Shown: piece by piece, positions 4,251 through 16,237 of the stretch | How positions within the stretch are numbered: the stretch's first letter is position 1 | Layout: each line of letters starts with the position of its first letter | From: a virus | DNA length: 20,031 nt | IMG/VR virus record: IMGVR_UViG_3300028394_000383 | Coordinates: 1 to 20,031 of that record | Reading direction: 5' to 3' (one strand) | The notes under the pieces: generated by a model | What the model was told of the DNA's origin: nothing | What the model saw: the letters and a program-made list of their open reading frames with translations, nothing else | Databases searched by the model: none | Position numbers and translations under genes: made by a program

Positions 4251-4281
4251 GTTTGTGATGTTTTAATTGTTAATCATACAC

Positions 4282-4303
4282 AAATATACAAAGTATAATT
4301 ATA
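4282..4303 (-). promoter_or_regulatory. Candidate promoter/operator: 22-nt element, copy 1
   Basis: This 22-nt AT-rich element is identical to 9860-9881 and lies 32 nt upstream of the gene starting at 4250. On the minus strand it contains TATACTTTG followed by TATATTTG. The latter fits the Bacteroidota -7 box TAnnTTTG. Its core TATAC-AAA-GTATA is an inverted repeat with a 3-nt spacer, as expected of an operator. No clear -33 TTTG is seen at the usual distance, so promoter identity is tentative. Confidence 0.5.
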
Positions 4304-4317
4304 AATCATAATAAAAT

Positions 4318-4351
4318 AAAAAAAAAGTGGGAAATAAAATATCTCCCACTT
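4318..4351 (-). terminator. Intrinsic terminator after the small protein gene at 4368
   Basis: On the minus strand AAGTGGGA pairs perfectly with TCCCACTT (8 bp) around an 11-nt loop and is followed by a run of nine T. It starts 17 nt after the stop of the upstream gene and precedes the promoter-like element at 4282-4303. It therefore separates two transcription units. Confidence 0.85.
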
Positions 4352-7398: not shown

Positions 7399-9564
7399 TT
7401 AAAATAATGTAATTTGAGATTTTAATGATACAACAGATTTTAAATTAGTTTTAGCTAAATCATAATAGCTTTCTTTTAATTCAAAACCTATACCTTTTCT
7501 ATTCATTTTTACAGCTTGATATACTTCGCTTCCAATTCCCATAAATGGAGTGAAAACAGTATCTCCTTTATTTGAATACAAATGAATTAATCTTTCAATA
7601 GTATCTAATTGTAATGGACAAATATGTTTTTCATCATTTTCTTCTCTACCATTCCTGTAACCTTGTAATGTATTTCCATAATTAATATCCATCCATACAG
7701 GTGAAGCGTATTTTTGCCACAAATCAACACTTAGCTCAGTATTTTTTACAGGATTACTTCTTTCTCCATCCTTTCTAAAAATCATAACATAATCAGGAAT
7801 ACCAACTCTGGACATGGTGGAGTCTTTTTTTACTTGTTTGTGCAACAATCCTAAAGCCTTAGTTCTTTGCATTTCAACAACTGGGTCTTTCCAAATTGTA
7901 ATTCTACTTGCGTAAATAAAACCAACTTCTTCAAATGATTTTAAAATCATTCCTGAAAAGTCTCTTAATCCAATATATCCTTCTTTGCCTTTTTGGATAG
8001 GCAAATCCATACAATGTACACATACATTCCTGCCTTGCATCATTACTCTATGTAATTCTTTTATTAAAAAATTAAATTGAGTTAAAAATTCATTATAATT
8101 TTTTGAGTTACCCATATCTTCAATGTGATTTGAATAGGTATATAATTCAGCGAAAGGTGGGCTAAAAACAGATAATCCTATACTTTCATCTGGTAAATCT
8201 TGTATTAACTGAACTGAATCACCTCTTTTAATATTATACCATTCGTTATTTTCATGAGAAATATCAAATACTTTTGAACTCATTATACTTCCAGATAAAT
8301 TTAAATTTACCGCTTTTGCCATTTCTTCCTGCATTAATAAAAATTGTTTTTGTTTGTAATCAATCGCTTGTTTAACATTACTCATTGTATCGGTTGTAAT
8401 CAAATAAATGTTAACTTCATTTTTTTGACCAAATCTATAAGACCTTCTTATTGCCTGATACAATCCCTCAAAAGAAAAATCTAAACTTGCAAATATTTGA
8501 TTATTGCAATTTTGATAATTCATTCCAAAACTTGCTATCTTAGTTTTAGTAATTAATATTCTAAATTCATTGTTTGCAAATCCAAGTAATTTTTCTTTTT
8601 TCCATTCATTAGTATCACTACCTTTTACTTCTATTGCCTCAGGAAGTAATTTTTTAAGTAGTTCACCTTCTTCATTTTGTTTAATCCAAATAATAAAATT
8701 TTCATTTGGTTTAGAGTTTATAATGCCAACTACTTCATCAAGTCTTTCTATTTTAGTTAGTCTTAATTCGCTATTAAAATTTGTAGCTGAAATTATAGCA
8801 TCATTAAATAGTTGTCCATTCTGCCTTTTTGGAGTAATTATTTGATTTTCTAATAGGTTTAATTGAGGAAGATTATAGCCATTCATCTCATATCCTATAT
8901 CCATTGGCTTACTAAGCATAATAGACCATGTACCAACAAATTGATAGAATAATTTTGTAGCATGACCTTTAAGCCTCCATTTTGCCGTTTCTCCACCATC
9001 ATGAATAAAATACATTGATAGCATTTCATTTCTTGTCATTACGTCTAAAAATTCAGAATGATTACCAAGTTCCATTGGATCATTTGGAGAAGGCGTTGCA
9101 GTACAAGCTAATTTATATGGAGTAAATTTAAAATTATCTAAAATATCCTTTTTTGTAGCACCTTCGTAATTTTTTAAAATACTACTTTCATCAAGTACTA
9201 TCCCAGAATATTGATTAACTAAAATATTATCTAATTGCTCGTAATTTATAACATCAATATTAGACATATCAATACCAAATTTAACTCCTTCTTGTTTTGT
9301 TTGACCAACAACAGCTAATGGAGCTAAAATCAATACTTTGCTATTTGTGTGTTTACATACTTGATTTGCCCATTCTAATTGCATCAATGTTTTGCCTAAT
9401 CCACAATCGGCAAAAATGGCATACTTACCAGCTTTTAAGGCTCTTTTAACAATAAATTTTTGAAAGTCAAACATTTTATTATTTAACATTTCATTATCTA
9501 TATCAAACCCACTATTAATGTGTGTTTTTTGTTTTGTTTTTAAAAATTCAAGATAATTTGTCAT
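7399..9564 (-). CDS. SNF2-type helicase fused to a beta-class DNA methyltransferase
   Basis: A 721-residue two-domain protein. The N-terminal SF2/SNF2-type motor shows Q/Walker A ADCGLGKT (52-59), Walker B LDES (124-127), motif III TATP (155-158) and motif VI RRSYRFGQ (373-380). From about residue 440 a methyltransferase domain follows, with catalytic SPPF (468-471, the N4/N6 amino-methylase signature) and the AdoMet-binding FTPFMGIGSE (671-680). The order IV then I marks a beta-class enzyme. Likely role: ATP-driven translocation with adenine or N4-cytosine methylation of phage DNA, protecting it from restriction. No nuclease domain is visible, unlike type I/ISP enzymes. The gene is AT-rich and starts 19 nt after a terminator hairpin. 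Confidence 0.88.
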   Translation of the reverse strand: MTNYLEFLKTKQKTHINSGFDIDNEMLNNKMFDFQKFIVKRALKAGKYAIFADCGLGKTLMQLEWANQVCKHTNSKVLILAPLAVVGQTKQEGVKFGIDMSNIDVINYEQLDNILVNQYSGIVLDESSILKNYEGATKKDILDNFKFTPYKLACTATPSPNDPMELGNHSEFLDVMTRNEMLSMYFIHDGGETAKWRLKGHATKLFYQFVGTWSIMLSKPMDIGYEMNGYNLPQLNLLENQIITPKRQNGQLFNDAIISATNFNSELRLTKIERLDEVVGIINSKPNENFIIWIKQNEEGELLKKLLPEAIEVKGSDTNEWKKEKLLGFANNEFRILITKTKIASFGMNYQNCNNQIFASLDFSFEGLYQAIRRSYRFGQKNEVNIYLITTDTMSNVKQAIDYKQKQFLLMQEEMAKAVNLNLSGSIMSSKVFDISHENNEWYNIKRGDSVQLIQDLPDESIGLSVFSPPFAELYTYSNHIEDMGNSKNYNEFLTQFNFLIKELHRVMMQGRNVCVHCMDLPIQKGKEGYIGLRDFSGMILKSFEEVGFIYASRITIWKDPVVEMQRTKALGLLHKQVKKDSTMSRVGIPDYVMIFRKDGERSNPVKNTELSVDLWQKYASPVWMDINYGNTLQGYRNGREENDEKHICPLQLDTIERLIHLYSNKGDTVFTPFMGIGSEVYQAVKMNRKGIGFELKESYYDLAKTNLKSVVSLKSQITLF

Positions 9565-9812: not shown

Positions 9813-9859
9813 TTTTGTTGTTTTTTAAGGTGATTTATCGTTTGTTTGTTTCGATATGT

Positions 9860-9881
9860 AAATATACAAAGTATAATTATA
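9860..9881 (-). promoter_or_regulatory. Candidate promoter/operator: 22-nt element, copy 2
   Basis: Identical over 22 nt to 4282-4303, located 48 nt before the ATG at 9812. The core TATAC-AAA-GTATA is an inverted repeat. On the minus strand TATACTTTG approximates the Bacteroidota -7 box with one extra base. An upstream CTTG is present but closer than normal -33 spacing. The rest of 9813-9918 is very AT-rich and holds no gene. Confidence 0.5.
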
Positions 9882-9918
9882 ATATACAAGCATAATTAAA
9901 AATAAATGTAAATTATTT

Positions 9919-10647
9919 TTATTTTTTTATCACCTTCCTCCACACTGCCAACTTCTGCGCAATTACCACTGCCCTTTTCATGTTCCCTTGCTCAATGATC
10001 TTTGCATGACTGCGGATGGTCATTAAGTCCAATGACTCTGGCGGCTCTTTAAGTGCAATGGCCTGGGCCTCATCCCACAACGCTCTCTTCTCTCCTTCCT
10101 CGTATGTTATCATATCAAACTTTAGGCACATATCATACCAGTATAGAGGCACATCTTCCCAAGTCTTTCCGGTAAAGTCTTTAATCATGGTTGGAAATTC
10201 TGCGTACAACTTCTCCCTTTCCTTTTGCCCTCTTTCTTCCATGTCCTTCTGGTGTCTAAGGTCTGCAATTTCATTGTCATGGCTTGCAATGATTCTTCTC
10301 CGATATACCATGTATCCATTTAGTATCTTTCCAATTGTGTGCATATTTGCCTTGCCGTAAAATTTAATGTCATCATCCAGTTCTAAAGTTTCTGCGGAGA
10401 ACATACGAAAAGCTATTTCAATCTCATTGGCTGCTATCTGCCCAAAGGTCTTAACTATCTCCTTGGCTATGTTGGCATAGAAGGCAAGGTCGCCATCAAT
10501 GCCGTACATCGGAAAAACGGAGCTGATTACGTTCAATGTTTGTTTGTACGCATCCTTCTGGTCAAGGTTGGCAATGCGGTTGGATCGGGCAGTGATGATT
10601 GCCTGCTCGTCAGAGTTGCGTGGTTGGTACTGTGTTAAATTACTCAT
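9919..10647 (-). CDS. Hypothetical replication-region protein
   Basis: A 242-residue, mostly helical, charged protein without a Walker motif. Notable segments are IGKILNGYMVYRRRIIA (about residues 106-122), followed by a long charged helix with RHQKDMEERGQKEREKLY. A C-terminal part has Trp/Tyr (WEDVPLYWYDM) and a basic end. Its location between the methyltransferase/initiator group and the helicase fusion suggests a replication accessory such as a helicase loader or DNA-binding protein. I see no motif that proves it. The base composition is clearly richer in G+C than the flanking helicase gene. It overlaps the upstream small gene by 8 nt. Confidence 0.72.
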   Translation of the reverse strand: MSNLTQYQPRNSDEQAIITARSNRIANLDQKDAYKQTLNVISSVFPMYGIDGDLAFYANIAKEIVKTFGQIAANEIEIAFRMFSAETLELDDDIKFYGKANMHTIGKILNGYMVYRRRIIASHDNEIADLRHQKDMEERGQKEREKLYAEFPTMIKDFTGKTWEDVPLYWYDMCLKFDMITYEEGEKRALWDEAQAIALKEPPESLDLMTIRSHAKIIEQGNMKRAVVIAQKLAVWRKVIKK

Positions 10648-10849
10648 TAATAAATTGTTTTAGTTTGTGATAGCTTCTTTGGTATTCAATGTATTTCTGC
10701 CTTTGCTCCCTGCTCATGGCATGGTACTTGGCTCGGAGGCGTAGGTTCTCGCGTTCGCGGATCTTCTTGTAAGTGTATTCGTTCATGGTGGCGCGGTACT
10801 TCTTCATGTACTCACGCATATAAGCGTTGCGGTCTTGCTTACATTGCAT
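10640..10849 (-). CDS. Small Arg/Tyr-rich basic protein
   Basis: About 69 residues, very rich in Arg, Lys and Tyr, with repeated YM-R/K-EY/KY units (NAYMREYMKKYRA) and RQKYIEYQRSYHKL near the end; a basic helix likely to bind nucleic acid. I prefer the ATG at 10849, which overlaps the preceding gene by 11 nt. A TTG three codons earlier (10858) would add a cysteine and create a C-x-x-C pair (DCMQCK), reminiscent of the first half of a zinc knuckle. No second zinc pair is seen. Function unknown. Confidence 0.65.
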   Translation of the reverse strand: MQCKQDRNAYMREYMKKYRATMNEYTYKKIRERENLRLRAKYHAMSREQRQKYIEYQRSYHKLKQFINE

Positions 10850-11078
10850 ACAGTCCAATATTTTTTATTTCAATTTCAACTTCTTCCCAATATTCGTGTG
10901 CTTTGTATTTTTTTTCATCCCACTTCTCTTGCTGCATTTGCATTGCAAAAAACAGAGCGCATTGTTCCGCGAGGATGGAAACAAGGATTTCATTTCCTAA
11001 TTCTCCTCCGACATTCTGGATGATGATATAGTAGTGGTCAAAGAGCTCCTTGGCTTTTTCTTTGGGTGTTTGTTTCAT
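10839..11078 (-). CDS. MKQTPKEKA-family small protein, copy 2
   Basis: A 79-residue acidic protein whose first nine residues, MKQTPKEKA, are identical to those of the gene immediately upstream. It also shares the middle pattern (A-x-Q-x-AL followed by E) and the closing EYW-x-x-V-x-x-E-I/L-K. It is therefore a tandem paralogue. It is probably a small helical protein of unknown function; families with this opening are, to my knowledge, frequent in Bacteroidota phages, often in several copies. Coupled to its paralogue by an ATGA overlap. Confidence 0.75.
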   Translation of the reverse strand: MKQTPKEKAKELFDHYYIIIQNVGGELGNEILVSILAEQCALFFAMQMQQEKWDEKKYKAHEYWEEVEIEIKNIGLYAM

Positions 11079-11323
11079 AAGCTTTTAAGTTCATTTTTTA
11101 CATGAATCCAATATTCTAAAGTTCCTTTGTCGTGATATTCTTGTAATGTAAATCCATTTATTTCAAGTATATCTATTATTTCATCAACTGCAACCAATGC
11201 AAATTGCTTAGCTTTAGATGAATCAATGTGTTCTATCCAGCCTTTAAATTCATCTAAGAATTTTGTGCATATAGTAAATTTATTAATTAATTCAACTGCC
11301 TTTTCTTTAGGTGTTTGTTTCAT
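11075..11323 (-). CDS. MKQTPKEKA-family small protein, copy 1
   Basis: An 82-residue protein beginning MKQTPKEKAVELINKF and containing KAKQFALVAVDEIIDILE and a C-terminal LEYWIHVKNELKSL. It is the tandem paralogue of the following gene (see 10839-11078), with diverged middle parts. The ATG overlaps the cytosine methyltransferase TGA by 4 nt (ATGA), and its own stop overlaps the next ATG the same way, so the three genes are coupled. No catalytic residues are apparent; small helical accessory protein. Confidence 0.77.
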   Translation of the reverse strand: MKQTPKEKAVELINKFTICTKFLDEFKGWIEHIDSSKAKQFALVAVDEIIDILEINGFTLQEYHDKGTLEYWIHVKNELKSL

Positions 11324-12576
11324 TCTTTTAAGCTTTGTATATATTCAATCGTATTAAAAATACGATACACAATTTGCGGCACTACGGCATTTCCGTATCC
11401 TTTGATGCTTTCGTTTCGCCACTTTGAAAAGGTAATATTGTCCAATCCGTGGGAAATCCCATCATCTCCGCTACAAACAGGGGATTGAGTTGGGAAGTTG
11501 TCCCACGCGGTATTCCAGATATTTCGTGAGCTTGTACTGCTAAATCTGATTTCCCTTTCCAATTCTCCGATGGGCCCGCACTTCCTTTCCAATCGGATAC
11601 TATCGGTGTAGGTAGCATCCCCATCTTCGCTAATGTCGTTAAATCGTCCATCTTCCCTTCCTCTATTCTCTGATGACTGTTCCCTTGTCCTTTGACTCTC
11701 GGTGTCGGTAGCATTCCCGATGCCATTGCTCTGGTCAATGTCATTGAGTGCATTGAACCCTCTTTTATTTGCGTTGATTTCATCGTTGCCGTTGCGTTCG
11801 TCGAATCCATGCAAGTCGGAGTTGGGAGCATCCCGTTGTTTGCCATCTGGGGTAAACTTATCCCAAATCTCACACCCGTTTTTAGACTTATTGATTTCCC
11901 GTCCGTTAATACTCTGCCCTCGTTTGTTGCATTCATTACCGTTGGAGTGGGCAGCATCCCGTTGTAAATCGCAAAATCTGTTATTGAAAATTGTCGATGT
12001 GTTCCTGCTTTGTTCAGCCGTGTGTATAATGGAAGATTGTTCTCCCTCATTTGTAATGCTAATTCCGGTCTTCCTCTCTGCATTGTGTCTGGAGTTGGCC
12101 ACAATCCAAAGTCTTTCCCTTTGGTGAGGTGCGTTGATCCCCGAAGCTGGAATAATAAACGCTTGGACTTCATATCCAATATTTTCCAAGTCAGCACACA
12201 CCTCGTGGAAAACCATCCCTCCATTCCAGTTAAGTAATCCACGAACGTTTTCGCCCACAACCCATTGTGGTTTAACTTCCCGAATAACTCGGAGCATTTC
12301 TGGCCAGAGGTGTCTGTCATCTTCCTTGCCAAGTCGCTTCCCGGCTGCGCTATATGGTTGGCAAGGGAATCCGCCTGAAATAATGTCAACTGTTCCGCGG
12401 TACTTTGTAAAGTCTGTTTTTTTAATGTCTTCATGGCATTCTGCATTTGGCCAATAGTGATTTAATATTTTACGGGGAAATTCTGCTATCTCACAATGAA
12501 ATATATTCTCCCATCCCATCCAGTCTGCGGCAAGGTCAAATCCACCTATACCACTAAATAAGCTTCCGTGTTTCAT
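11320..12576 (-). CDS. DNA (cytosine-5) methyltransferase
   Basis: A 418-residue C5-methyltransferase. Motif I FSGIGGFD (7-14) binds AdoMet; motif IV GGFPCQPYS has catalytic C72. Motif VI ENVRG (109-113), motif VIII QRERLWIVA (152-160) and the late GYGNAVVPQ motif near residue 395 are all present, so the enzyme looks intact. Residues 165-375, where the target-recognition region lies, are unusually polar, Asn/Asp/Arg-rich and repetitive (DAAHSNGNE, DAPNSDLHG, NATDTESQR, DATYTDSIR). That region is covered by a second long ORF in another frame. No restriction endonuclease gene is adjacent, so it is probably an orphan enzyme protecting phage DNA. ATGA overlaps on both sides. Confidence 0.93.
   Translation of the reverse strand: MKHGSLFSGIGGFDLAADWMGWENIFHCEIAEFPRKILNHYWPNAECHEDIKKTDFTKYRGTVDIISGGFPCQPYSAAGKRLGKEDDRHLWPEMLRVIREVKPQWVVGENVRGLLNWNGGMVFHEVCADLENIGYEVQAFIIPASGINAPHQRERLWIVANSRHNAERKTGISITNEGEQSSIIHTAEQSRNTSTIFNNRFCDLQRDAAHSNGNECNKRGQSINGREINKSKNGCEIWDKFTPDGKQRDAPNSDLHGFDERNGNDEINANKRGFNALNDIDQSNGIGNATDTESQRTREQSSENRGREDGRFNDISEDGDATYTDSIRLERKCGPIGELEREIRFSSTSSRNIWNTAWDNFPTQSPVCSGDDGISHGLDNITFSKWRNESIKGYGNAVVPQIVYRIFNTIEYIQSLKE
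11382..12446 (-). CDS. Overprinted ORF inside the methyltransferase gene (PTP-repeat protein)
   Basis: A 354-codon ATG-initiated frame on the same strand, +1 relative to the methyltransferase, covering its codons 44-398. It encodes a distinct protein with five PTP motifs: LWPTP at 115-119 and MLPTP at 164-168, 206-210, 245-249 and 277-281. A C-terminal LNPLFVAEMMGFPTDWT sits at 320-336. An uninterrupted frame this long is very unlikely by chance in AT-rich DNA. From memory, proteins with repeated [ML]-[LFW]-PTP-x-x-x-D and a closing LNP-x-[FW]-V-E-x-x-MGFP-x-x-WT motif recur in phage genomes next to or across C5-methyltransferase genes, usually annotated as hypothetical. No ribosome-binding site is evident. 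Function unknown. Confidence 0.62.
   Translation of the reverse strand: MQNAMKTLKKQTLQSTAEQLTLFQADSLANHIAQPGSDLARKMTDTSGQKCSELFGKLNHNGLWAKTFVDYLTGMEGWFSTRCVLTWKILDMKSKRLLFQLRGSTHLTKGKDFGLWPTPDTMQRGRPELALQMRENNLPLYTRLNKAGTHRQFSITDFAIYNGMLPTPTVMNATNEGRVLTDGKSISLKTGVRFGISLPQMANNGMLPTPTCMDSTNATATMKSTQIKEGSMHSMTLTRAMASGMLPTPRVKGQGNSHQRIEEGKMDDLTTLAKMGMLPTPIVSDWKGSAGPSENWKGKSDLAVQAHEISGIPRGTTSQLNPLFVAEMMGFPTDWTILPFQSGETKASKDTEMP
11603..11961. repeat. Four degenerate ~20-bp direct repeats in the methyltransferase target-recognition region
   Basis: Plus-strand copies near 11603, 11700, 11817 and 11941 share the pattern CGGnGTnGGnAGCATnCC; a weaker fifth lies near 12090. In one frame they encode D-A/T-x-x-S/T-D/N, in the overlapping frame GMLPTP. 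Spacing is irregular (about 97-124 bp). They could reflect internal duplication of recognition-region units or constraint from the second frame. Confidence 0.6.
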
Positions 12577-13463
12577 GGTTGATATTCATTTACAAGTCTT
12601 TCAATCTCCTCCTGCCTGCGCTTCTCCTGTGCGGCAGGGTTGTTAAAATGCCACTTTGTATAAATAGAATTGGCATTGCTATAAATTATTGATATGCTAA
12701 AATTATTCCTAATATACTTATCACCAACATGCCAAGCTGCCTTGGTGAAAGCGGAAACCATTTCATCCATTGTTCCCTCAACAACGGCAATTTGCTTTAT
12801 CCATGATATTAATTTTTTGCAGTTACTCCCATCTTTCGCACTCATAATGTAATTGCCTTGCTTGTTCTTTGGCAAAGTAACCTTGGCGCAATTTTCGTAC
12901 GCTTGGCAAAAGGCAATGAAGGCGGAGTAAGTTTCTGTATTTTCTTTGTCTTTTAACGCAACATTAACTTTTTCTTTAAAACCTTGCTCATGGGAAATGG
13001 AATCATGGATAGACTGCCTTGCAAAACTATTTTTTATTTTTGGTTGAGGAGGCGTGAAAGAATTTTCACAACCTTTATAATCTTTATTATTATCTGTTTT
13101 ATTCTCTGTATTATTATGTTCACGTTTTCGTGTAGGCTGCTTTGTTGTTTTCGTTAAGTCTGCTTTCACGTTTTCGTTAAAGCTGCTTTCACTTATCTGT
13201 GTTCGCAGTCCTCTGTTTCTTCCATCAAAAAACAACTGAATAATAAATCCTCTCTTTTTTAAGTCAACTATTATATTAGCTACCCTACCTTCTGACAACT
13301 GCACAAATGATGCTAAGTATTCATTAGAGGCAAAGCAGCCGCGGTCGGAGTTGTCCAGGGAGTCAATTTCAACTAATAATATTTTTTCTATTATAGATAA
13401 GTCAGTGTTGAGCCATATCTCTTTAGGTATCCATACACCTTTAAAGTCTCTATTTTCTTTCAT
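12573..13463 (-). CDS. Winged-helix replication initiator / replisome organizer-like protein
   Basis: A 296-residue protein with a DNA-binding N-terminus, a low-complexity linker and a C-terminal domain. Residues 8-76 (FKGVWIPKEIWLNTDLS, then GCFASNEYLASFVQLSEGRVANII and DLKKRGFI) match the helix-turn-helix layout of phage replication initiators (HTH_36 / DnaD-N-like). The linker, about residues 90-150, is rich in Asn, Thr and Lys. At DNA level it holds three 23-bp tandem repeats and an AT-rich stretch. The C-terminal part (about 155-296) has KLISWIKQIAVVEG and a basic tail and may contact a helicase or loader. The lambda O-like arrangement suggests it binds the repeats in its own gene. The exact family is inferred. 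Confidence 0.78.
   Translation of the reverse strand: MKENRDFKGVWIPKEIWLNTDLSIIEKILLVEIDSLDNSDRGCFASNEYLASFVQLSEGRVANIIVDLKKRGFIIQLFFDGRNRGLRTQISESSFNENVKADLTKTTKQPTRKREHNNTENKTDNNKDYKGCENSFTPPQPKIKNSFARQSIHDSISHEQGFKEKVNVALKDKENTETYSAFIAFCQAYENCAKVTLPKNKQGNYIMSAKDGSNCKKLISWIKQIAVVEGTMDEMVSAFTKAAWHVGDKYIRNNFSISIIYSNANSIYTKWHFNNPAAQEKRRQEEIERLVNEYQP
13075..13120. other. AT-rich stretch beside the iterons (candidate DNA unwinding element)
   Basis: These 46 bases contain only 7 G or C, much fewer than the surrounding initiator gene, and directly abut the tandem repeats at 13124-13192. An AT-rich unwinding element next to initiator-binding repeats is the classical origin layout. It encodes the Asn-rich linker of the initiator. 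Confidence 0.5.
13124..13192. repeat. Three contiguous 23-bp direct repeats (candidate origin iterons)
   Basis: Units 13124-13146, 13147-13169 and 13170-13192 follow each other with no spacer. All three begin GTTTTCGT and have CTGCTTT at positions 14-20. The last two differ at only two positions and end in CAC, and a partial end (GTTCAC) precedes the array. Because 23 is not a multiple of three, each unit is translated in a different frame, so the DNA rather than the peptide seems to be conserved. The position inside the initiator gene resembles ori-lambda in gene O. Confidence 0.75.
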
Positions 13464-14083
13464 TGTTTACTAATTTTACTAACAATGTAATTAATTACTT
13501 CTGCGTCAAATAATTTATTAATGACTCTTATAAAATCATCTGGTGTTTGTTTAACACTAATAGTTGGTTTTCTTAATCCTACTTGAACCATTGCAGCATT
13601 GGCAGAAATTTCTTTTGCTATAACTTTATTTGCTAAATCTACATGACCAGACTTAGTTAGTTTTTCAATAGAATAATCTACTCTGTTGCCTTGTATTGTG
13701 TTTCGTTTATTAATCTCATTACTAACAATGTTAGTAATGAGATTTGTATTTTTATATTTATAATCACTTCCTCCTAATCCTTTACTCCATAAATCTCTAT
13801 GTTTTACAAGAACATCTTCATGGTCACGAAAGTATTTTTGAAAGTCACTATCTGTACTTCCTAATCCACCTTCTAATATCGGTGTCTCAATAAATGCTTT
13901 GTAAGCTTCATGTCTTGATCGTTTATTTAAAATGTCATTAAAAGCATTTTGCTCTATCATTTCAAAGTAATGTTTCTTTGCACTTTGTACATTATGCAAT
14001 CCACCATGGTATGATTTTATAAAATATTTTATACTAAAATCTAATGGTGTTTTACTTTCTGTAAATCTTACTTCTGAAGCCAT
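13460..14083 (-). CDS. Hypothetical protein, possibly DNA-binding, upstream of the initiator
   Basis: A 207-residue basic protein. The C-terminal third reads SIEKLTKSGHVDLANKVIAKE, then ISANAAMVQVGLRKP. This 'rule out, propagate, SANAA...aG(f/l)RK' pattern resembles a helix-turn-helix-like segment I have seen in phage and ParB-like DNA-binding proteins; the assignment is tentative. The N-terminal half is Lys/His/Tyr-rich with no motif. The gene contains a perfect 33-bp palindrome (13712-13744). It overlaps the initiator by 4 nt (ATGA) and the helicase by 16 nt, so it probably acts in replication or in control of it. Very AT-rich compared with the genes at 9919-12576. Confidence 0.7.
   Translation of the reverse strand: MASEVRFTESKTPLDFSIKYFIKSYHGGLHNVQSAKKHYFEMIEQNAFNDILNKRSRHEAYKAFIETPILEGGLGSTDSDFQKYFRDHEDVLVKHRDLWSKGLGGSDYKYKNTNLITNIVSNEINKRNTIQGNRVDYSIEKLTKSGHVDLANKVIAKEISANAAMVQVGLRKPTISVKQTPDDFIRVINKLFDAEVINYIVSKISKQ
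13712..13744. repeat. Perfect 33-bp palindrome with 1-nt centre
   Basis: The left arm AATCTCATTACTAACA (13712-13727) is the exact reverse complement of the right arm TGTTAGTAATGAGATT (13729-13744), separated by a single A. It lies inside the coding sequence of the gene at 13460-14083, about 520 bp from the iterons. A 13-nt part (TTACTAACAATGT) recurs at 13476-13488 near the end of the same gene. Symmetry without a loop points to a dimeric-protein binding site rather than an RNA hairpin. Confidence 0.8.
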
Positions 14084-15921
14084 ATTGGTAAAGTTTTAGA
14101 TTCATTAATAGTAGTTGATAAAGCATTAAGCCATTCCAATTTATTTTTAAGTTGTTCAAATGTCATGTCTTTTGTATTTGTCCTATTTTCATATACATAC
14201 CTACCATTAATTGATTTTTTTAAATCACCAATAATAGTTGTGTTAATAGATTTTGACTTTAAATTTTTAACTATTTTATATGACATTGAACCTACTAAAG
14301 TATCAATTTTTGCAAGTAATTCATTCCTGGATAACTCTTGTTTATGTATAATTGCTTTCTCTTCAAATATTTTACCAAGATGTTCTTTTATAATATCAGT
14401 ATGCTCTGAATTATTTTTATCAATTATAATTCTTTTATCTGATTGTAAACTATCCTTTAATCTTAAAAACTCTTTTTCTGGCAAATTATTTTTTTGCCAT
14501 TCTTTAAATAATACATCTGTAATTTGATTAAATAAATTATACTCATAAATAGGTAAGTCATTCCAATTATCATCATCTTCTGTAGGTTCATCTATTTTAC
14601 TATCTCCGGTAAACTCTGTTCCTTGCCATGTAATTTCTGATAATTGTTTTATAGTTTCTAATGCTTTAGAATCTGTAGGAACGTAAACATAACCAAAATC
14701 ATCATCATAATTTTCTATCATGTAATTTCTTCTCATGGCTCTCATTATTTTTTGCACAACTTGATTACCATTATATTGAAGAGAAAGATAAATAATAATA
14801 CTTGATTGAGGATTATCAAAACCTTCTCCTGCAACAGATACTTGTACTAAACATGGTATTTCACCATCTTTATATTTTATTAATATTTCTTTATTGTCAG
14901 ATAATTTTCTGCCATTAACACCAGTGCCTATCCAATTAGCAAAATTAGGTCTCATATCATTAATCATTTTACAATAATTTTGAGCTGATGAAACAGTATC
15001 GGCAAATATTAAAATTTGGTGTATAGGTCTATTTGGCTTTTTTGCATTTGCATTAATATATAAATCCGTGTCTTTTAAAGTTAATTGGTCATATTTATCT
15101 ATTGCCTCAATAAACAATGGACTTACATATTTACTTAAATATCTAAGTTGTTTTTTAATTTCATATTGATTTATATCCTTATAATCGTTTAAAATTATTT
15201 CTTCTCTTAATTGTTCTGTAGTTAAATTTAGTACATTACCTTCTATTAAAAGATCAACATAATAATCTCCAGCAATATATTTAATTCGTCTTATTGCTTC
15301 TTCTTCGATACCTTGTTTTATATCTAAGTTGTAAATATTATTACTATCAATTTGCTTAAATATAGATAATTGGTTTGTGTTATCTGGTGTAGCACTTAAT
15401 CCTAAAAAATATTTAGCATTTAATCCAGCAATTAAATTACCAAATTTATTAACATCTGTATAATGATGTGATTCATCAACACATACAAACCAATTACCAG
15501 TTCTTAGTAAATCATTTAAAATAGATCCTCTACTATTTATTCCAAAGTGAGGAGTTACCATAAAAAACTCAGATTTATTATACTGATGTTCTTTTATAGC
15601 AAATGAATCATTTACTTGTACAACAGAATCACCAGAATTACATATAAATTCAAATCCAATTTTTTTACATTGCTTTTTTAAATCTTTGTTAAAATCAATT
15701 AATTTAACTGTTGATGGTGCTACATAAAGAAATCTATCGCACTTTCTTTGTTTACGAAGTTCGTAGTAAGCACCAATAGCAGTTAATGTCTTACCATATC
15801 CTCCTGGTAAAACTGCTAAATAGGTGCCTTGCCCACCGTTTAAAATCATGTTAATTGTTTCCTCTTGACCTTTACGGTACTGGAATCCATCTTGGTTTTC
15901 TTTTTGTGACATTCTAAACAT
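14068..15921 (-). CDS. SF2 DNA helicase (DEAD/DEAH-like)
   Basis: A 617-residue superfamily 2 helicase: Q-region FQYRKGQEET (13-22), Walker A LPGGYGKT (38-45), Walker B VDESHH (148-153), motif III SATP (176-179), IFADT at the start of the second RecA-like domain, motif V GEGFDNP and motif VI QKIMRAMRR. It should unwind or translocate on DNA during phage replication or recombination. The C-terminal ~170 residues are charged and lack recognised motifs. The start is the ATG at 15921, with a second ATG three codons later; both lie inside the HNH gene. The overlap with HNH is 76 nt in a -1 frame. The coding sequence is extremely AT-rich (10 G+C in the 60 bases from 14221). Confidence 0.9.
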   Translation of the reverse strand: MFRMSQKENQDGFQYRKGQEETINMILNGGQGTYLAVLPGGYGKTLTAIGAYYELRKQRKCDRFLYVAPSTVKLIDFNKDLKKQCKKIGFEFICNSGDSVVQVNDSFAIKEHQYNKSEFFMVTPHFGINSRGSILNDLLRTGNWFVCVDESHHYTDVNKFGNLIAGLNAKYFLGLSATPDNTNQLSIFKQIDSNNIYNLDIKQGIEEEAIRRIKYIAGDYYVDLLIEGNVLNLTTEQLREEIILNDYKDINQYEIKKQLRYLSKYVSPLFIEAIDKYDQLTLKDTDLYINANAKKPNRPIHQILIFADTVSSAQNYCKMINDMRPNFANWIGTGVNGRKLSDNKEILIKYKDGEIPCLVQVSVAGEGFDNPQSSIIIYLSLQYNGNQVVQKIMRAMRRNYMIENYDDDFGYVYVPTDSKALETIKQLSEITWQGTEFTGDSKIDEPTEDDDNWNDLPIYEYNLFNQITDVLFKEWQKNNLPEKEFLRLKDSLQSDKRIIIDKNNSEHTDIIKEHLGKIFEEKAIIHKQELSRNELLAKIDTLVGSMSYKIVKNLKSKSINTTIIGDLKKSINGRYVYENRTNTKDMTFEQLKNKLEWLNALSTTINESKTLPIWLQK

Positions 15922-16082: not shown

Positions 16083-16237
16083 ATTTTGCTTACCTTACCA
16101 TCAGTGTGGCGGACTACAGTGTAAATATACATAATTTTATTTACTTTTCCCTTTACTTTTCCAAGGCGGATTCCCTTATACTCTGTTCCCTCTAAAGTGT
16201 AAAGTCGTTTTTCTATTTCTTTAATATTATTACTCAT
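16079..16237 (-). CDS. Small basic hypothetical protein (52 aa)
   Basis: A 52-residue frame starting MSNNIKEIEKRLYTLEGTEYKG. It is rich in Lys, Gly, Tyr and Ile and looks like a short helix followed by beta strands (GKVNKIMYIYTVVRH; TDGKVSKI). It starts 2 nt after the stop of the MptE-like gene, and its TGA overlaps the HNH ATG by 4 nt. The packing on both sides is the main evidence that it is expressed. No family recognised. Confidence 0.62.
   Translation of the reverse strand: MSNNIKEIEKRLYTLEGTEYKGIRLGKVKGKVNKIMYIYTVVRHTDGKVSKI

Follow-up and report, generated by a model that had tools for sequence, protein, structure and literature searches.

Does the replication initiator gene of a virus carry its own origin of replication within its coding sequence? 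This question is raised by three 23-bp repeats beside an AT-rich stretch inside such a gene on a 20,031-bp IMG/VR virus record, which was analysed over its whole length and is called the window here. We conclude that the linker DNA of this gene very probably holds the origin served by the encoded protein: the winged helix would act on the repeats (iterons), the AT-rich block would melt, and the C-terminal domain would recruit the helicase together with a partner protein. The features concerned are collected in Table 1.

An earlier note, made from the sequence alone, had taken the gene for a winged-helix initiator, and profile searches agreed with this. The protein matched PF13730 (HTH_36) with an E value of 6e-7 and 29.6 bits, above the gathering cut-off of 25, and its Pfam matches were limited to HTH_36 and, weakly, HTH_46. 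Its PHROG matches were to replication initiation families and O-like ones, at best with an E value of 1e-13. No match to DnaB_2 or Phg_2220_C was found up to an E value of 0.01 for the full protein and of 1 for its C-terminal part; relatives that combine the same DNA-binding type with DnaB_2 or Phg_2220_C domains exist (L254, L260). The AF2 model, built on a 72-row alignment, predicted with high confidence a winged helix at residues 14-88, followed by a linker with residues 92-145 and 147-174 below pLDDT 50, within which the iterons and the AT block are encoded, and a helical C-terminal domain at residues 176-294. Fold searches with the DNA-binding domain recovered DnaD-N (2v79) with Z 9.4 and an rmsd of 4.3 over 101 aligned positions. 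Two chains of initiator type were also matched, 4pql with Z 9.4 (rmsd 4.6 over 99 positions) and 4pt7 with Z 9.1 (rmsd 6.6 over 100), as were many MarR-type winged helices at equal or higher Z. Sequence searches against solved structures gave chance matches only. The predicted recognition helix, which differs in sequence between iteron types, would contact the iterons.

Table 1. Positions of the initiator gene, its putative origin elements and the partner gene in the window
Feature	Position	Strand	Remarks
Replication initiator gene, 296 aa	12573..13463	minus	winged helix, disordered linker and helical C-terminal domain
DNA-binding domain coding DNA, residues 1-90	13194..13463	minus	PF13730 at residues 22-74; DnaD-N-like fold
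Recognition helix, residues 58-71 (LSE-GRVAN region)	13251..13292	minus	AF2/DSSP
Iteron 1, distal to AT block	13170..13192	minus	14/17 positions self-complementary; minus-strand 23-mer GTGAAAGCAGCTTTAACGAAAAC
Iteron 2	13147..13169	minus	10/17 self-complementary; minus-strand 23-mer GTGAAAGCAGACTTAACGAAAAC
Iteron 3, adjoining AT block, most degenerate	13124..13146	minus	6/17 self-complementary; minus-strand 23-mer AACAAAGCAGCCTACACGAAAAC
AT-rich block, 12-bp repeats (AATAATACAGNT type), candidate DNA-unwinding element	13075..13118	minus	TRF 13075-13117, period 12
Helical C-terminal domain coding DNA, residues 176-294	12582..12938	minus	without confident Pfam match
242-aa partner gene (phrog_26016), candidate helicase-recruiting factor, lambda P's part	9919..10647	minus	phrog_26016 E 3e-7

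The three contiguous 23-bp repeats in the linker were confirmed by self-match, TRF and consensus search. TRF reported 3.2 copies at 13119-13192 with a score of 99, the top array of the window. The best 46 bp of the period-23 self-match reached 38/46, compared with a maximum of 29 in dinucleotide shuffles of the gene (n=300). Allowing at most 3 mismatches, the iteron consensus had 3 matches in 20,031 bp, all of them in the array, and 0 in 100 shuffles. A loose dyad-core pattern that was scanned genome-wide proved too unspecific and was dropped. The low G/C content of the neighboring stretch, to which the earlier note had also pointed, was counted correctly (7 G/C in 46 at 13075-13120), but it is not unusual by itself, because 430 of the 19,986 windows of 46 bp are equally AT-rich. 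We therefore rejected AT-richness per se as evidence for an origin. What is notable in this stretch is the 12-bp repeat and its conservation, not the base composition.

Relatives came from viral contigs, scanned three times, and from bacterial and archaeal genomes, scanned once; together these scans yielded the loci L002-L232. From the 231 loci we took 198 into the analysis and left out 33, namely further loci of entered contigs (L089, L122-L150, L152, L155) and L232, a 13-residue match. Together with the window they gave 158 distinct ORFs (41 identical ones were dropped), 6 of them open-ended and 20 shorter than 170 aa. A tandem score of at least 31 in a 46-bp window was reached by 98/158 initiator ORFs compared with 12/328 other ORFs of the same loci, some of the scores coming from AT repeats and not from iterons (the best period was 12 bp in 16 cases and 15 in a few). 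The repeats fell at residues 60-160 in 94 of the 98 scoring ORFs, and in 70 the period was not divisible by three. Sorted by class of DNA-binding domain, the score was reached in 71/101 ORFs of the A-superfamily, 11/11 of class B, 4/4 of C, 6/21 of D, 0/10 of E, 1/2 of F and 5/9 unclassified ones; the remaining 30/101 A-superfamily ORFs include truncated ones. Periods of 20-24 with a score of at least 29 occurred in 68/101 A-superfamily linkers and in 0/54 of the last 270 coding bases. In seven long contigs the iterons were confined to the initiator gene, except that one contig had four weak matches elsewhere. The tandem test responds poorly to irregularly spaced units, as shown by a score of 27 for lambda O, which is a true positive.

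The earlier note had suggested that selection in the linker acts on DNA. We compared codons in pairs sharing an amino acid with degenerate codons among 32 full-length type-A sequences. The same codon was used in 7188/7730 cases (0.930) in the iterons and in 5262/5312 (0.991) in the AT block, where amino-acid-matched expectations were 0.625 and 0.665. Elsewhere in the gene the rate was lower, at 23745/37398 (0.635) for the DNA-binding domain and 20609/34554 (0.596) for the C-terminal part. Amino-acid identity was 0.890 in the DNA-binding domain, 0.678 in the iterons, 0.714 in the AT block and 0.528 in the C-terminal part. The linker protein is thus less conserved than the DNA-binding domain, yet its codons are nearly frozen, and the proposed comparison of unit conservation with protein divergence turned out strongly positive. 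Codon identity in the iterons exceeded that in the DNA-binding domain in 447/452 divergent pairs, which share sequences and are non-independent. The case named in the earlier note as speaking against its reading, a linker peptide kept in relatives without the repeats, was unseen in the close family, with a period-23 array in 33/33 type-A ORFs.

These data bear on the alternative that the repeats serve the protein, with selection on amino acids maintaining a disordered, repetitive linker. The linker is indeed disordered in the AF2 model, and the AT block is translated for the most part in a single frame (NNT), 155/162 A-superfamily matches to its motif RRTAATAYA (see below) lying in phase 0. 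For this reason coding limits may account for the biased frame and strand of AATAATACA. We therefore did not accept the phase of the motif as proof that DNA is selected, and relied instead on codon freezing and on GC-rich phages. The 23-bp copies, however, are read in three different frames, as had been noted before, and give the unrelated peptides ESSFNEN, VKADLTKT and TKQPTRKR. Linker amino acids vary more than those of the domain while synonymous sites are frozen, and the half-sites covary as DNA dyads. We regard selection on the protein as an exceedingly improbable explanation of the repeats.

Aligned in register, the A-superfamily iteron consists of a half-site, CAG, the inverse half-site and an A-tract. 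For the dyad test, 47 ORFs with CAG in at least 2 of 3 units were reduced to 16 representatives at 80% domain identity, with 39 units. Complementary cells numbered 173/312, compared with 119.5+-7.6 (maximum 146) in 2000 permutations of the right halves. The half-sites vary among proteins and match inside each site (GTGAA..TTCAC, AGCAA..TTGCT, GACTAC..GTAGTC), as expected of selection by a symmetric protein dimer; this pattern suggests that the initiator occupies the iterons as a dimer. In the window itself the symmetry declines from iteron 1 to iteron 3 (14, 10 and 6 of 17); the poor dyad of the third copy counts against the origin reading. Imperfect inverted repeats on the transcribed strand could also form RNA hairpins that regulate the transcript. 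Against this, no Rfam family was found in 12400-14200, and neither the regular tandem spacing of 22-23 bp nor the AT block nor the coupling to the DNA-binding domain would be expected of hairpins, which we therefore consider a highly improbable explanation of the dyads.

The coupling just mentioned was seen when iteron distances were compared with those of the protein parts. They correlated with the distance of the DNA-binding domain (Mantel r 0.564, p 0.0002; 24 loci), and no correlation with the distance of the C-terminal domain was detected in the same loci (r -0.006). GCTAAAA-type units accompanied SRVAH proteins in 7/7 cases and ACGAAAAC-type units accompanied GRVAN/GRLAN proteins in 25/25, a descriptive pairing, as the two unit patterns were defined by eye after viewing the sequences; the single SRMAN protein (L032) fits neither. 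Furthermore, the same C-terminal family is joined to unlike DNA-binding classes with units of 23 bp (B), 22 bp (C) and 16 bp (D). Class-D DNA-binding domains are homologous to TP901-1 Rep, at 40% over 63 aa with an E value of 4e-13. Where the DNA-binding domain has been replaced, most classes bear other repeats at the same place. The main exception is class E, which shares the C-terminal family and the partner and showed no tandem array at a score of at least 31 (0/10 ORFs). Its members (L020, L040, L041, L055, L063, L093, L095, L104, L112) have two in-frame 24-bp repeats of the TTCACNNATGAAGAGGGG type, which may be another site design. Coinheritance alone is no proof of binding, because linkage could hold adjacent segments together in recombinants, and physical linkage could explain part of the module correlations. 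As far as sequence comparison can tell, the putative origin arrangement is conserved and swapped as a unit among many phages.

The AT block contains the motif [AG][AG]TAATA[CT]A (RRTAATAYA), which in A-superfamily ORFs occurred 159 times in 22,635 nt of linker compared with 3 times in 53,510 nt elsewhere. Among 16 relatives from named records, 12 had it in the linker, with 23 matches in 3,642 nt and 7 in 133,752 nt outside (both strands). The motif is common to phages of at least four host phyla. In the Pseudomonas phage Skulduggery, with 59% GC, the linker contains AATAATACA twice. Codon use in seven genes of this phage, linker excluded, is AAT 6 : AAC 42 for Asn and ACA 5/60 for Thr; the motif is thus retained against codon usage. 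Seven of the 16 named-record relatives had a tandem score of at least 31 and three more scored 30. GJ44 and Cormatin have iterons and lack the exact motif, and two genes sharing the domain, LE1 Orf5 and that of Bacteroides C3_41T2LP, had neither iterons nor motif. According to the annotation, 10/16 named-record genes are followed by a gene for a DnaC/DnaI-like loader, an IstB-like or other AAA/ATP-binding protein, or a DnaB/replicative helicase.

Since the winged-helix fold is near to MarR-type repressors and the sites are dyads, the iterons might instead be operators through which the protein represses or roadblocks transcription in its own gene, with replication starting elsewhere. The AT block, however, is even more strictly conserved than the sites (0.991), its motif is common to many phage groups, and it did not change sides relative to the iterons among the relatives inspected. 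Initiators with in-gene origins are also known among homologous or analogous genes. Moreover, autoregulation and origin function can coexist. An operator without origin function is very unlikely in our judgement.

The C-terminal part of the initiator is associated with a second gene. At all loci with this C-terminal family and at least 2.4 kb of downstream sequence (58/58), the partner gene lay downstream of the initiator, and tblastn detected it at 0/60 loci with other C-termini, a search that a diverged partner could escape. Other neighbors turned over, with the 207-aa gene upstream kept in 5/69, the helicase in 1/69 and the C5 methylase downstream in 4/87. Across 26 loci, partner distance followed that of the C-terminal domain, with r 0.864 and, after allowing for the DNA-binding domain, 0.852; its correlation with the DNA-binding domain was 0.065 once the C-terminal domain was accounted for. 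The partner model is all-helical with a mean pLDDT of 88. The partner had no Pfam match and no clear PDB match, no loader was among the fold matches listed, and the Pfam and PHROG comparison gave no match to a DnaC/DnaI ATPase. By analogy to O/P, the partner may act in recruiting the helicase. As a separate observation, a phosphoadenosine phosphosulfate reductase-like gene directly follows the initiator at two loci (L032:2769-3518, L020:3608-4357).

The gene thus combines tandem iterons under DNA-level selection, dyads and adjoining AT-rich repeats, three features of the functional class with an origin inside the initiator gene. What the data directly support are the repeats, the DNA-level conservation, the covarying dyads and two couplings, one between iterons and DNA-binding domain and the other between C-terminal domain and partner. 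In the mechanism that we propose, the N-terminal winged helix would bind the three dyad iterons, probably as dimers because the sites are dyads, and would wrap or bend the DNA. The strain would melt the adjoining AT-rich 12-bp repeats, a step suggested by their position and codon freezing. The C-terminal domain and the 242-aa partner would bring the replicative helicase onto the opened strand, as their coupling and analogy suggest, and replication would start at the array.

This layout had been likened to ori-lambda in the earlier note. In lambda, 19-bp imperfect inverted-repeat iterons and an AT-rich tract lie in the middle of the O gene and O is a dimer (PMC7466680), and the NC_001416 annotation gives four iterons. 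Both systems have in-gene dyad iterons, an AT block and a downstream partner, and in both the N-terminal part goes with the origin and the C-terminal part with the partner. They differ in that lambda has four irregularly spaced units, compared with three regular 23-bp units here, and the partner here is non-adjacent and not recognisably lambda P. Homology to lambda O was undetectable with hhalign (probability 0.2%); lambda O matches PF04492 (6e-36) and the window protein PF13730, so the latter does not belong to the Lambda O family (PF04492, Phage_rep_O). The parallel stands for layout, dyad iterons, AT block and downstream partner as an analogy, and the likeness appears to be one of mechanism, not of detectable homology.

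TP901-1 Rep/ORF13, Tuc2009 Rep2009, 80alpha ORF20 and SPP1 G38P are likewise origin binders with repeats inside their own genes. The literature places the TP901-1 and Tuc2009 repeats inside the cognate replisome organizer gene (PMC8965321), describes 80alpha ORF20 as not complementable in trans (PMC5499656) and locates SPP1 oriL, with an AT region, inside gene 38 (PMC6316719). The 80alpha record carries an annotated putative rep_origin inside gp20 (ORF20). The TP901-1-type organizers differ from the window protein, whose domain is of the HTH_36/RDFKGVW type and whose C-terminal part shows no match to DnaB_2 or Phg_2220_C.

In the plasmids RK2 and F the origin lies outside the rep gene. These iteron plasmids resemble the window in having tandem initiator sites that adjoin repeated AT-rich elements, and at RK2 oriV (TrfA) and F oriS (RepE) a single strand of these AT repeats is bound by Rep (PMC4081077). 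Gordonia phage initiators have near-identical C-terminal regions and unrelated winged-helix N-termini, which was read as domain exchange (PMC10684548). Exchanged winged-helix parts are a likeness to our phages; a difference is that the part of that paper available to us mentions neither iterons nor a co-travelling origin.

The host is probably a member of the Bacteroidota, an assignment suggested in the earlier note that is plausible rather than proven. The nearest cellular match was a Saprospiraceae MAG contig. A survey of Bacteroidota genomes gave 2/395 matches, one of them the known Saprospiraceae MAG, so that no prophage series was available for host assignment. Shine-Dalgarno-like motifs were found for 3/24 genes, at chance level (10-14%). 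The GC-skew analysis suggested for mapping the replication start did not point to the gene: cumulative extrema fell at the initiator in 0/9 long contigs, and third-position skew showed no consistent side difference in these nine. In the window, GC skew tracks gene orientation. GC skew is uninformative on the origin position, and we weighed it neither for nor against.

Elsewhere in the window, two adjacent small ORFs on the minus strand (10839-11078 and 11075-11323) both start with MKQTPKEKA and share a 26-nt repeat at 92% identity. An AT-rich intergenic element of the TGTAAATATACAAAGTATAATT type is repeated at 4279-4335, 9857-9913 and 16120-16141 and is possibly regulatory. The minus-strand gene at 7399-9564 encodes a 721-aa protein with an SF2-type helicase part and an N6/N4 DNA methylase part. 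A 354-aa ATG frame at 11382-12446 (minus strand) overlaps the C5 methylase gene at 11320-12576 out of frame and is possibly a mechanical ORF.

Searches of the openly licensed literature yielded no earlier account of this phage family, nor of iterons lying inside the initiator gene in phages of this kind. The phage family, the C-terminal domain with its partner, the natural specificity swaps and the AT motif RRTAATAYA are new; the logic is known from lambda O/P and TP901-1/80alpha. We tentatively propose, as a joint reading that falls somewhat short of probable, that these phages combine exchangeable origin-specificity cassettes with a constant C-terminal/partner pair and a conserved single-strand reader of RRTAATAYA. 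Because one segment would hold both the DNA-binding domain and its cognate origin, recombination in the linker would switch specificity and origin in one step. The strand-fixed RRTAATAYA, shared by phages whose iterons are unrelated and whose hosts are Bacteroidota-like, pseudomonad, firmicute and fusobacterial, would point to such a reader. As part of the same tentative proposal, the helicase-recruiting pair would be unlike O/P or DnaD/DnaC in sequence. If true, the pairs of iteron and recognition helix would be a natural series on the evolution of initiator origin specificity, and the genes would be self-contained modules of origin and initiator, possible replicons for poorly tractable hosts. 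The shared AT motif would open the question of what reads the melted strand to tests in several groups of phages.
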